Assembly (NCBI GenBank): GCA_020720325.1
Contig: DYOW01000018.1
Coordinates: forward strand, 1 to 34,049
DNA length: 34,049 nucleotides
DNA from: Desulfobulbus propionicus
GTDB lineage: Bacteria > Desulfobacterota > Dissulfuribacteria > Dissulfuribacterales > DYOW01
Direction of reading: 5' to 3'
Of this stretch, positions 348-19,420 are shown piece after piece (positions within the stretch are counted from its first letter, which is position 1; each line of letters opens with the position of its first letter). Below the pieces are notes generated by a model that was not told the DNA's origin, did no database searches, and saw only the letters and a program-made list of their open reading frames with translations. The translations under genes were made by a program, and so were the position numbers.

Positions 348-887
348 ATGAAAAAAACATTATTAATCATCACAATGCTTATTACTTTAACCACATTTAT
401 TTCCACATCCGCCTTTGCAGGTGGAGCATTCAGAGAAGGCAAAACATGGGAAAATCCCGAAGGAGGAACAAGCGGAGCCGCCGCAAGCGGAGCTTATGGA
501 CCTAACGGCGGAACAGGCTCTGTTCGTGGATATACAAGCGATGGAGCTGGAAATGTCCAGACCGGAAGCGGCAGGGCGTTTAAGACTCCTGCAGGAACAA
601 CTGGCGGCAGGGCATCCACCACCACAAAAAACGCTGATGGCACAGGAACAAGACAAAGCGGCATGGCTGTTGACAGCGCATACGGCACAGCCAAAAGCTC
701 AGGAACAGCATCAAAAACATCTACAGGCGTTGAAGGCACAAAGTCAACCACTGCTACCTCAAAAACAACTGGTCAGACATATTCAGGTTCAACAAGCTAT
801 GATTATGACAAAACAACCGGCGATGGAAGCGTTTCACACACATGTTATGATACATATGGTAATCCAATCACCTGCCCCAAACAATAA
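348..887 (+). CDS. Secreted Gly/Thr/Ser-rich protein, copy 1
   Basis: This encodes 179 residues. Residues 1-24 are a Sec signal peptide (Lys pair, hydrophobic core, SAFA cleavage site). The mature part is low-complexity, rich in Gly, Thr, Ser and Ala, with no membrane segment. It ends in a motif with two cysteines (CYDTYGNPITCP) that could form a disulfide. The start is set by a Shine-Dalgarno run (AAAGGGGAAA) 8 bases upstream. A TATAAT at 303-308 could be a -10 box, but no good -35 box is visible. The gene is a tandem paralogue of the gene at 1168-1716. Their centres (394-652 and 1214-1472) match at all but one of 259 bases, while the signal peptides and C-termini have diverged. The function is unknown; composition suggests an exported or surface structural protein. 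Long frames in other phases are side effects of the G-rich repetitive sequence. Confidence 0.85.
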   Translation: MKKTLLIITMLITLTTFISTSAFAGGAFREGKTWENPEGGTSGAAASGAYGPNGGTGSVRGYTSDGAGNVQTGSGRAFKTPAGTTGGRASTTTKNADGTGTRQSGMAVDSAYGTAKSSGTASKTSTGVEGTKSTTATSKTTGQTYSGSTSYDYDKTTGDGSVSHTCYDTYGNPITCPKQ

Positions 888-922
888 TAACAATAAAGTA
901 TAAAAATCTGATATGTTAAGAG

Positions 923-953
923 CGCCTCCGGATAACTTCCGGGGGCTTTTTTT
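923..953 (+). terminator. Rho-independent terminator after secreted copy 1
   Basis: A hairpin with arms around GCCTCCGGA and TTCCGGGGGC (one G-T pair, short loop) is followed by seven T. It lies 35 bases after the stop of the first secreted gene. It corresponds in position to the terminator after the second copy and was duplicated with it. Confidence 0.85.
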
Positions 954-1075
954 ATTCTATCCCCAGTTTCTTCATCTTGTTAAAAAGTCTTTTGCAGCTA
1001 ATTCCAAGTTTTTTGGGCTACCTCAGTCTTATCATATTTACACTCCTTTTTACACACCTTCAGGACATTTATCAA
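952..1075 (-). pseudogene. Relic of the 3' end of the NtrC-type regulator
   Basis: Read on the minus strand, this segment aligns with the last ~40 codons of the regulator at 1777-3141. ECKYDKTEVAQK matches ECKYNKTEVAKK, then, after one inserted base in the A-run, SCKRLFNKMKKLGIE matches SYKTLFNKMKKLGIE, and both end at an equivalent TAA (952-954 versus 1777-1779). The frameshift and the absence of the rest of the gene show that it is dead. It holds only part of the Fis-type DNA-binding helix-turn-helix. It sits directly behind the terminator of secreted copy 1, just as the intact gene's end sits behind the terminator of copy 2, so it was carried along in the tandem duplication. Confidence 0.78.
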
Positions 1076-1107
1076 TACATACAAAAAGTAATTCTGTCTG
1101 AAATTAA

Positions 1108-1139
1108 TTGACAAATATCATAAAGTTATTCAATATAAA
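1108..1139 (+). promoter_or_regulatory. Possible promoter of secreted copy 2
   Basis: A perfect TTGACA (1108-1113) is followed by TATAAA (1134-1139). The spacing of 20 bases is long for sigma-70; CAATAT at 17 bases is a weaker alternative. It lies 29 bases before the gene's start codon. No GG-N10-GC sigma-54 signature was seen upstream of either copy. Confidence 0.3.
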
Positions 1140-1167
1140 ATAACATAATAAAAAAGGAGAAAATTCC

Positions 1168-1716
1168 ATGAGAAAATCATTTTTAACCATTGCAATGTTG
1201 ATGTTTATCACTTCATTTATTTCCACATCCGCCTTTGCAGGTGGAGCATTCAGAGAAGGCAAAACATGGGAAAATCCCGAAGGAGGAACAAGCGGAGCCG
1301 CCGCAAGCGGAGCTTATGGACCTAACGGCGGAACAGGCTCTGTTCGTGGATATACAAGCGATGGAGCTGGAAATGTCCAGACCGGAAGCGGCAGGGCGTT
1401 TAAGACTCCTGCAGGAACAACTGGCGGCAGGGCATCTACCACCACAAAAAACGCTGATGGCACAGGAACAAGAAAAAGCGGTTTTGCTGCTGATAACGCC
1501 AAAGGCACAATTAAAAGCCAGGGCTCCGCATCAAAAACAGCCACAGGAGTAGAAGGCAACAGATCTTCATCCGCAACATCTAAAACAACCGGAAACTCAT
1601 ATTCCGGCTCTACAAACTATGAATATGACAAAACAACCGACGATGGAAGCGTTTCACACACAGGCAAGTGTTATGATTCTTACGGCAATGAAATAGCCTG
1701 CCCTAAATCAAAATAA
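1168..1716 (+). CDS. Secreted Gly/Thr/Ser-rich protein, copy 2
   Basis: This encodes 182 residues and is a tandem paralogue of the gene at 348-887, offset by 820 bp. It has a signal peptide (residues 1-24, ending SAFA), a low-complexity Gly/Thr/Ser/Ala body, and a C-terminal CYDSYGNEIACP motif with two cysteines. An AAAAGGAGAAAA ribosome binding site precedes the ATG. Residues 17-102 are encoded by DNA nearly identical to copy 1, whereas residues 103-182 differ often (for example FAADNAKGTIKSQGSA instead of MAVDSAYGTAKSSGTA) and include three extra codons. This copy faces the sigma-54 regulator end to end and is probably the ancestral location, because the regulator next to it is intact. The function is unknown. 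Confidence 0.87.
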   Translation: MRKSFLTIAMLMFITSFISTSAFAGGAFREGKTWENPEGGTSGAAASGAYGPNGGTGSVRGYTSDGAGNVQTGSGRAFKTPAGTTGGRASTTTKNADGTGTRKSGFAADNAKGTIKSQGSASKTATGVEGNRSSSATSKTTGNSYSGSTNYEYDKTTDDGSVSHTGKCYDSYGNEIACPKSK

Positions 1717-1751: not shown

Positions 1752-1778
1752 AGCCCCCGATTTCAGGGGGTTTTTTTT
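1752..1778 (+). terminator. Rho-independent terminator after secreted copy 2
   Basis: AGCCCCCGA and TCAGGGGGT form a GC-rich hairpin followed by eight T. The T-run overlaps the stop codon of the convergent regulator gene at 1777. On the minus strand the hairpin is followed by a poorer T tract, so it may work weakly in that direction too. Confidence 0.88.
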
Positions 1779-3141
1779 ATTCAATCCCAAGCTTTTTCAT
1801 CTTATTAAAAAGGGTTTTATAGCTAATTCCAAGTTTTTTTGCCACCTCAGTCTTATTATATTTACATTCCTGCAGGGCATTTATTATAAACTCTTTTTCC
1901 TTGATATTTATGGCATCCTTGCAGACTGAGCGTAAATCCTTTTCTAAATCCCACTCAAATTCTTCTGTTTTTTTTTCTTTTACAGGCATATTCATTTGTT
2001 GTTTTTTAAATTCCAGTATTTTTAATATATTATTTCTGTCAATGACATTTTTTTCACAAAATATTGATGCCCTATCAAGAATATTAAAAAGCTCCCTGAC
2101 ATTTCCGGGAAATGAATAATCCTCGAGAAGTTTCACCGCATCATCTGATATTAAAAGATTTTTCTCAATTGTTTGCGAAAGGCTTATTAGATGAAATTTA
2201 ATAAGGGGATATATGTCTTCTTTTCTTTCCCTTAAAGGAGGAATATCTATTGGAAAATTATTCAGTCGAAAAAAGAGGTCTTCCCTGAATTTTTGTTTTT
2301 TTACCTCATCATAAAGATTTCTGTTAGTTGCGGCAATAACCCTTGCGCCGCTAAATTTTTCAATAACGCCTCCTATTGGGATAAAAGCGCCTGAATCAAG
2401 AAATCTAAGGAGTTTTGGCTGTAAATTCAGGAATAATTCGCCTATTTCATCAAGAAACAATGTGCCCTCAGAGGCGCTTTCCACAAGACCAGACTTGTTT
2501 TCAGTAGCGCCGGTAAATGAACCCTTTGTATGGCCAAACAGCAGGGATTCAGCCAGCTCAAATGGAAGGTTTGCGCAATTAAAAGGCACAAATGTTTTTC
2601 TGGCGCTGTGTTTATGAATATAATTTGCAATGACATCCTTTCCGACCCCGGACTCACCGGTTATCAAAACAGGAAAATTGGTTTTTGCCACCTGTCTGCA
2701 AATTTTTAAAATTTCATGCATCCTGACAGAATATGAAATTGGGAACATCTCATCTTTTGAAAAAACTTTATCTTTTTCAATTGCCAGATTTATTTTTTTC
2801 TCAAATTTTTCAATAAGCTCATTTAAGTCAACAGGTTTTTCAAGATAATCCGAGGCGCCAAGTCGCATTGCCTCAACAGCGGAATTTATTGTGCCGTGCG
2901 CAGTCGCCACAATTATGACGCAGTCCGGATTTATTTCCTTTGCAATGGGAATAAGGTCTATTCCTGAGCCGTCAGGAAGTTGCAGGTCAAGGAGGATGCC
3001 GTCAGGCTTTTTGGAGATAAAGCTTTCCTTTGCCTCTTTAAGATTGTAAACTGATAAAATTCCAAAGCATCCTGACAGGGCTTCCTTGAAAATTTCTGAT
3101 AATTTTCTCGTATCCTCAACAAGTAATATGGTTGGTTTCAC
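1777..3141 (-). CDS. NtrC-family sigma-54-dependent response regulator
   Basis: This encodes 454 residues in the usual three-domain layout. The receiver domain (3-120) has acidic residues ED at 9-10, the phospho-acceptor Asp52 in LLDLQLPDGSG, and Lys102 in EKPVD. The AAA+ domain (~135-370) has Walker A GESGVGKD at 162-169, the sigma-54 contact loop GSFTGA at 207-212 (Ser in place of the more common Ala), and Walker B TLFLDEIGE at 227-235. A Fis-type helix-turn-helix ends the protein (NKTEVAKKLGISYKTLFNKMKKLGIE region). Proteins of this type use ATP hydrolysis to open sigma-54 promoters when phosphorylated by a partner kinase. No kinase gene adjoins it; the one at 29.7-31.2 kb is far away and need not be its partner. 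It converges on the secreted gene pair and is divergent from ppx. I assign no target. Confidence 0.95.
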   Translation of the reverse strand: MKPTILLVEDTRKLSEIFKEALSGCFGILSVYNLKEAKESFISKKPDGILLDLQLPDGSGIDLIPIAKEINPDCVIIVATAHGTINSAVEAMRLGASDYLEKPVDLNELIEKFEKKINLAIEKDKVFSKDEMFPISYSVRMHEILKICRQVAKTNFPVLITGESGVGKDVIANYIHKHSARKTFVPFNCANLPFELAESLLFGHTKGSFTGATENKSGLVESASEGTLFLDEIGELFLNLQPKLLRFLDSGAFIPIGGVIEKFSGARVIAATNRNLYDEVKKQKFREDLFFRLNNFPIDIPPLRERKEDIYPLIKFHLISLSQTIEKNLLISDDAVKLLEDYSFPGNVRELFNILDRASIFCEKNVIDRNNILKILEFKKQQMNMPVKEKKTEEFEWDLEKDLRSVCKDAINIKEKEFIINALQECKYNKTEVAKKLGISYKTLFNKMKKLGIE

Positions 3142-16934: not shown

Positions 16935-18509
16935 TTATTTAGCAAATTCAACAGAGCGGGTCTCCCTGACAACTGTTACCTTAATCTGTCCGGGGTAAGT
17001 CATTTCCTCTTCTATTTTTTTTGCAATTTCAAAACTCATTAAAGCAGCTTCAGCGTCATTCACCTTTTCGCTTTCAACAATTATCCTTAATTCTCTTCCT
17101 GCCTGAAGCGCATATGATTTCTGAACACCTGAAATTGATGATGCAATGCCCTCAAGATTTTCAATTCTTTTAATATAGCTTTCCAAAACCTCTTTTCTTG
17201 CGCCTGGTCTTGCTCCTGAGATGGCGTCTGCCGCCTGCACAAGCACTGCAAGAATGCCCTCCATCTTTACATCTTCATGATGGGCTGCGATTGCATGCAC
17301 GATTTCCGGGGCTTCACCAAATTTTTTGGCAAGATCAGCACCAATCATGGCATGAGGTCCTTCTATTTCATGGTCAGCCGCCTTTCCAATATCATGGAGG
17401 AGTCCTGCCCTTTTTGCCTTTTTGGGATTAAGTTTTAATTCAGATGCCATAATTCCGCATAAAAAAGCAACATCAAGGGAATGGCTAAGGACGTTCTGGG
17501 TATAGCTTGTGCGAAATCTCAGTCTGCCTAATAATTTTATAAGTTCAGGGTTCATACCAAATACACCCACATCAAAGGCAGCCTGTTCTCCAGTTTCACG
17601 AATGGTGGTTTCAATCTCTTTTTCAACCTTTTTTACCATTTCCTCAATTCTTGCAGGATGTATCCTTCCGTCAGAAATAAGCCTCTCAAGCGTTAACCTC
17701 GCGATCTCCCTTCTTATTGGATTATATCCTGAAAGTATAACTGCCTCAGGTGTGTCATCAATAATAAAATCAATGCCTGTGGCTGCTTCAAGCGCCCTTA
17801 TGTTCCTTCCCTCACGTCCTATTATTCTTCCCTTCATTTCATCATTTGGAATTGGAACTGAGGAAATAGTCTTTTCAGCGACGTAATCGCCTGCATATCT
17901 GTTAATTGCAAGAGAAATAAGTTCTTTAGCCTTTTTATCTGCATTTTCCTTTGCCTCATTTTCAATGCGTTTGGCAAGTTTTCCTGCTTCCTGACGGATT
18001 TCACCCTCAATAAGCCTCAGAAAATGTTCTTTTGCCTCCTGCTCGGTCATCGATGTTATTTTTTCAAGCTGGTTTTTCTGCTCCTGAATAATGACATTTA
18101 ATTCTTCATTTTTTTCCGTTATTGTTTTATTAAACGAATTTAATTCTTTTTCTTTGTCTTTCAGCTCAATCTCTTTTTGATCTAAAAATTCCTGTTTTTT
18201 ATCTATCTGTTTTTCTTTTTGCAAGATTCTTTTTTCAAGGTTTGAGACCTCATATCTCTGCTCTTTAATATCTCTATCAGCCTCTTTTTTTTGCTTAAGG
18301 CTTTCATCCTGGGCCTTTGCCCTGGCTTCGTTAATTATTAAGGAAGCCTCAATCTCTGCTTCCTTCTTTATCTTTTCAATGGTTATATCAGCATCAATTT
18401 TATCATTTTTAGCCTTATTTCTGTAATATATGAATGCAGTGATAAGACCAACGGCGATCCCAGATATAATAAATGCAACTGACAGTATTATTTTAAATAA
18501 TGACTCCAT
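16935..18509 (-). CDS. rny: Ribonuclease Y
   Basis: This encodes 524 residues. An N-terminal membrane segment (~7-28) is followed by a long charged coiled coil (~30-200), a KH RNA-binding domain (~210-275, with [16 protein letters not shown]) and an HD metal-dependent phosphohydrolase domain (~330-430, with HSLDVAF and GLLHDIGKA). RNase Y is a membrane-bound endonuclease that starts mRNA decay, at home in Firmicutes and also present in many deep or delta-like lineages lacking classical RNase E. The ATG has a TAGGAG site 11 bases upstream. It lies just after the 6S RNA gene, an arrangement shared with other delta-type genomes as I recall it. Confidence 0.96.
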
Positions 18510-18678: not shown

Positions 18679-18694
18679 CCCATTTTAAGGGATT

Positions 18695-18867
18695 AAACCC
18701 CGCGAATGCCGTGTCTAATAGTCTTATGAACCTGATTACTCAGGTGGGTGATTCTCTTTACAGCCTTCGGGACAGAGATTTTCCGTCACACCAACTGTAT
18801 GGAAGAGACACCCTTTATTTTAAAAATGGTTCAAAGAAATAAATCAATCACGGGCACCGCAGGGAAA
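18695..18867 (-). ncRNA. ssrS: 6S RNA
   Basis: About 173 nt on the minus strand directly behind zapA, the classical place for 6S RNA. The ends pair into a long closing stem: 5' CCCTGCGG-TGCC-CGTG with 3' CACGGCATTCGCGGGG, allowing one bulge. The interior contains the expected long irregular hairpin with a central open region (TTGAACCA near the 5' side, AATCACC and a CCTGA/TCAGG hairpin near the 3' side), similar to the E. coli order TTCACC-hairpin-GGCGGCA. 6S RNA mimics an open promoter and holds RNA polymerase with the main sigma factor in stationary phase. The exact ends are estimated. A 61-codon frame on the plus strand here is not a gene. Confidence 0.85.
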
Positions 18868-18870
18868 ATA

Positions 18871-19173
18871 TTATGTATGTGTCTCTTCTATAACTTTATC
18901 TATTGTTTCTGCAATTTTTTTTGTTTCTTTTGAGTATACCTCCTCCAGTGTTTGTAATTTTTTTTTTGATATTATACATTCTTTTCCTAACTTTAGGAAG
19001 GCAAGGACTATCTGCTTATGAGGGGCAAGATGTCCATACTGAGAATGAATTTCATTTATTGCATGCTGTACAAAGTCAACAACTTCCTTGGTGCGTATAT
19101 CATCGTTTTTATCTTTCAGATAATAAACATTACCAAAAAAATTAAATTCTACATCATTAGCATTATTTTTCAT
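18871..19173 (-). CDS. zapA: Cell division protein ZapA
   Basis: This encodes about 100 residues from the ATG at 19173. It matches ZapA: an N-terminal beta region (VEFNFFGNVYYLK), the conserved middle (KEVVDFVQHAINEI) and HKQIVLAFLKLGKE, ending in a coiled-coil helix. ZapA bundles FtsZ filaments at midcell. The frame extends upstream to 19203, but the conserved domain begins after MKNNANDVEF. The ATG at 19173 (or 19179) overlaps the zapB-like stop (ATGAAAAATAA), suggesting coupled translation; no strong Shine-Dalgarno is seen for any choice. The 6S RNA follows within a few bases of the stop. Confidence 0.85.
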   Translation of the reverse strand: MKNNANDVEFNFFGNVYYLKDKNDDIRTKEVVDFVQHAINEIHSQYGHLAPHKQIVLAFLKLGKECIISKKKLQTLEEVYSKETKKIAETIDKVIEETHT

Positions 19174-19420
19174 TGTCATCTGGAAGATCAGATGTAATAA
19201 CATCTAATTCATCTATTTTTGAAATTAATCCCTCAATTCTGTTTTTAATTTCATCCCTTTCAGACTCCAAATGTGAAATTTTTTCCTGTAATGAACTAAT
19301 TTCCTTAGTTTTGTCCTCATTTGATCTCAAAAGTATGTTTCTTTCATCCTTAATGGTTTGAAAGGCGTTAATTAAAACCTTTGTTTTATCTTCAAGTAAT
19401 TTTAATTCATTTTGTTCCAT
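19163..19420 (-). CDS. zapB: ZapB-like coiled-coil cell division protein
   Basis: This encodes 85 residues, almost entirely a predicted coiled coil with heptad-spaced Leu/Ile (LEDKTKVLINAF, ISSLQEKISHLESERDEI). Size, coiled coil and position just before zapA fit the ZapB-type factor that joins ZapA at the division ring. Sequence identity in such short coiled coils is weak evidence, so the name rests mainly on context. Its end overlaps the zapA start. Confidence 0.72.
   Translation of the reverse strand: MEQNELKLLEDKTKVLINAFQTIKDERNILLRSNEDKTKEISSLQEKISHLESERDEIKNRIEGLISKIDELDVITSDLPDDNEK

Follow-up and report, generated by a model that had tools for sequence, protein, structure and literature searches.

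Two neighbouring genes near one end of a contig assigned to Desulfobulbus propionicus encode small exported proteins that are nearly identical at the DNA level in the centre and diverged towards both ends. This raises the questions of how old the pair is and what has made, or kept, the two centres alike. The stretch that we analysed (34,049 nucleotides, referred to here as the window) makes up all of contig 64 in a genome assembly of 2.44 Mb and 204 contigs. Copy 1 is an ORF at positions 348-887 on the forward strand and encodes an exported protein of 179 aa that is rich in Gly, Ser, and Thr, has a signal peptide ending in AFA followed by GG (judged by eye), and carries a C-x(9)-C-P motif in its C-terminal region. 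Copy 2, its tandem paralogue, is an ORF at 1168-1716 on the same strand that encodes 182 aa, and the two proteins are 83% identical. A search of the genome for further copies, which the initial annotation had proposed, returned these two genes and neither a third copy nor fragments of one. The exported proteins had no profile match in Pfam, NCBIfam, or PHROGs and no match in the PDB, and no relative was found in viral contigs and phages. The structure model had a mean pLDDT of 39.6 and was uninformative. The family has no name and appears to be undescribed. Directly upstream of copy 1, positions 1-231 hold the C-terminal end of an ORF that is cut by the contig end. Farther along the window there is a 6S RNA (Rfam RF00013) at 18693-18868 on the reverse strand, between an rny-like gene (16935-18509) and a small ORF (18871-19203).

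The region of near-identity has sharp edges. The maximum-likelihood tract spans 394-653 in copy 1 and 1214-1473 in copy 2, both on the forward strand; it begins where the signal peptide ends and extends to codon 102. It contains one mismatch in 260 bases compared with 109 differences at 473 aligned flanking sites, which agrees with the initial annotation (one mismatch in 259 between 394-652 and 1214-1472) except that the tract is one base longer. The mismatch, at 617 in copy 1 and 1437 in copy 2, is a silent TCC/TCT difference in codon 90. The two copies match without interruption over as many as 223 aligned sites, and none of 20,000 permutations gave a run above 79. A model with three segments was better than a uniform model by 48 log units. 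The uniformity reaches silent sites, as had been claimed. By Nei-Gojobori counts, the tract differs at 1 of 67 silent and 0 of 188 non-silent sites, and the C-terminal part at 27.5 of 55 silent and 28.5 of 179 non-silent sites (Fisher P ~9e-11 for the silent sites). GC3 is alike in the tract (0.35-0.37) and the C-terminus (0.32-0.35).

A pattern of this kind might be produced by an assembler that placed the same centre sequence at two positions. The assembly is fragmented and is probably built from short reads, the locus lies 348 bases from a contig end, and the 223-base identical run is longer than common k-mer sizes. However, assemblers collapse or break at repeats and do not make diverged copies alike. 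This contig spans both copies, the single difference separates them, and the flanks, terminators, and regulator remnant are distinct. We therefore regard an assembly artefact as very unlikely.

Outside the tract the two genes have diverged substantially. Their C-terminal parts (654-884 in copy 1 and 1474-1713 in copy 2, forward strand) differ at 56 of 234 bases (24%), with pS of 0.50, pN of 0.16, and dN/dS of ~0.22, so that the C-terminus is under purifying selection. Approximately 31% of bases differ in signal-peptide codons 1-16. The initial annotation had put the divergence of both ends at about a third, which is somewhat high for the C-terminal part. It had also described the terminators as different, and the terminator-like hairpins 3' of copy 1 (924-946) and of copy 2 (1750-1774), both on the forward strand, do differ. 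Within the C-terminal part, a second, weaker island of similarity links 804-851 of copy 1 with its counterpart in copy 2. Only one of its 48 aligned sites differs (permutation P of 0.0004 for an island picked after looking), and it is perhaps an older and shorter conversion.

The DNA following each gene provides an independent clock for the age of these flanks. Convergent with copy 2 is an intact gene for an NtrC-type (sigma-54) response regulator (1777-3141, reverse strand; 454 aa) with the Pfam domains Response_reg, Sigma54_activat, and HTH_8. The relic that had been reported downstream of copy 1 is real. New here is its identity: judged from its translation and from local alignment to 1777-3141, the segment from 951 to ~1090 on the reverse strand is the 3' end (~45 codons) of this neighbouring regulator gene, with an upstream limit that is uncertain between 1055 and 1100. 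The genome holds no other copy of the 1777-3141 regulator, the next best match being 43%. The relic has a +1 frameshift as well as an insertion of 12 bases. The comparison with the intact gene covers 30 codons and includes an alignment gap that could not be placed exactly; across these codons, 8 of 16 silent and 4 of 71 non-silent sites differ. Had the relic drifted since a duplication of the silent age of the C-terminal part, ~22 non-silent differences would be expected (P ~1e-7), and its own silent/non-silent ratio departs from drift as well (P = 0.012). The relic differs mainly at silent sites and thus was a functional gene through most of its evolution; a relic that has merely drifted since duplication is rejected by this pattern. 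The change from SYKTL to SCKRL, in a stretch that is strictly conserved in orthologues, shows that there was also a later, unconstrained phase.

Silent divergence of the relic (0.50) equals that of the C-terminal part. From this we infer that the two units are old (pS ~0.5), that each had a working regulator during most of that time, that the first regulator was lost later, and that the centre was homogenised recently. The older age that the initial annotation read from the flanks is thus supported, but a duplication of the unit in its present form with simple drift of the relic since then is not an adequate account. Given the mark of purifying selection on the relic, there must once have been a functional second regulator or a donor from outside. 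Either the exported-protein gene and the regulator gene were duplicated as one unit or they came from a diverged lineage, with loss of the second regulator only afterwards.

We wished to determine whether selection, instead of recombination, keeps the centre uniform, through protein function, RNA structure, or an overlapping reading frame. Constraint on the middle of an exported protein is conceivable, and the initial annotation had named this alternative. The comparison used the single-copy homologues L006 and L007 from two genomes (G039 and G027) of another genus and family in the same order. Amino acid identity between the window proteins and these homologues is 44% for the centre and 43-51% for the C-terminus; overall, copy 2 is ~41% identical to them. 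Between L006 and L007, identity is 83% in the centre and 91% in the C-terminus, and silent pS is 0.45 and 0.37, respectively. Neither at amino-acid nor at silent sites did we find excess conservation of the centre in these two homologues. Their centre is no more conserved than their C-terminus, and therefore selection does not explain the match between the window copies, which extends to silent sites. In particular, a centre conserved at amino-acid but not at silent sites in relatives was looked for and was not seen, and gene conversion survives this comparison. We found no strong RNA structure in the tract (fold z of -1.43), and RNA structure was rejected as the cause of silent conservation. 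Two overlapping ORFs, 415-903 on the forward strand and 387-656 on the reverse strand, are open across the tract and closed in both L006 and L007. Selection on the centre is highly improbable in light of these results.

The relatives bear equally on the suggestion that the locus is a programmed system that sets variable C-termini on a constant secreted scaffold. Two adjoining genes with the same body and different ends would fit such a system. However, there are only two copies, with no cassettes or fragments elsewhere in the genome, and the other holders of the gene have one. The C-terminus has the low dN/dS given above and, of the two halves, is the one better conserved when L006 is compared with L007. 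We consider programmed diversification of this kind extremely improbable.

Recent gene conversion in the centre of two old neighbouring copies is the best explanation and a likely one. It had been proposed in the initial annotation, and silent sites, the relic, and the relatives all support it. In the most likely course of events, tandem duplication of both genes would have placed two diverging copies of the exported-protein gene and its converging regulator gene side by side. Both regulators would have been under selection most of the time, until only the last ~45 codons of the first remained. Much later, a RecA-dependent exchange between the exported-protein genes, with no net crossover, may have copied one 260-base stretch over the other, and one silent change would have gathered since. 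The genome contains recA. The same pattern could also arise from two unequal crossovers in succession or from a diverged homologue that became integrated.

The second of these possibilities ranks next after conversion. DNA from a diverged strain, with that strain's form of the gene and the last part (3' end) of its regulator, might have recombined into the resident gene via the central tract. The tandem arrangement, the truncation of the regulator, and the uniformity of the centre (through gap repair that made the centres identical) would then all stem from a single event, and the divergence of the flanks would be that between strains or species. This would explain the young age of the tract, the lack of another copy of the regulator, and the evolution of the relic as a functional gene. 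In relatives the regulator-ppx(-guaB) gene order is conserved: this NtrC-type regulator also lies by ppx elsewhere in the order, often with guaB. The locus is resident in the order, and the gene for the exported protein occurs sporadically (3 of 46 genomes). Against this, the decay of the relic, with its frameshift, its insertion, and the change in SYKTL, exceeds what one silent tract change at the same age predicts, and we rank integration second for this reason. GC3 gives no sign of a foreign part. We hold integration to be possible but unlikely. If it were true, an apparently old and later patched duplication would be a recent foreign insertion.

Gene neighbourhoods gave some indication of what the exported proteins do. 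Distant relatives occur in G039 and G027 (L006 and L007), in G383, and on an Azotobacter plasmid, and all adjoin an OmpR-type regulator and a histidine kinase. An LTXXQ protein is near in three of these four loci, although the G027 case is below the curated cut-off, and an EF-hand protein is near the Azotobacter plasmid homologue. The G383 kinase is nearest to CpxA but below the cut-off of that model. The regulator beside the window pair, unlike these OmpR-type systems, is of the NtrC type. A Saccharibacteria match (L005) is a different, larger exported protein that shares little beyond a DGAGNVQTG stretch and is no relative. Based on gene neighbourhood, the window proteins are probably exported envelope proteins with expression tied to a two-component system, and a role in envelope responses is a reasonable guess. 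Neighbourhoods in which an OmpR-type regulator and histidine kinase occur with an LTXXQ or EF-hand protein may be compared with CpxRA and with bfmRS and efhP in P. aeruginosa (PMC4148453). The likeness of the homologues to these loci is one of neighbourhood type only. We considered whether the bfmRS region of P. aeruginosa is linked directly to the family and rejected this: PA4103 is described with a ferric-reductase-like component.

Ectopic gene conversion between bacterial paralogues is known, for example between tufA and tufB (PMC6053082), where it likewise keeps the paralogues alike down to silent sites. The present case differs in being a partial tract in a tandem pair of small exported-protein genes, in one genome, with no evidence of recurrence. 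Rearrangement within duplicated genes for Gly-rich proteins has been described for a PE_PGRS pair of Mycobacterium (PMC1762029). The two cases share Gly-rich proteins, duplicated genes, and recombination between copies, but the window proteins are of an unrelated family with only two copies and show no sign of antigenic variation. Cassette-type antigenic variation uses several silent or partial donor copies and a variable part under diversifying selection, neither of which is seen here. Conversion at this locus is a common sort of genome patching and not a new system for making variable proteins. The locus is a clean, small case in which a conversion tract can be told from selection by means of silent sites, a pseudogene clock, and relatives, and it warns against dating a duplicate by the part in which the copies are most alike. 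The locus also draws attention to a family of exported proteins, apparently undescribed, that is found by two-component systems.
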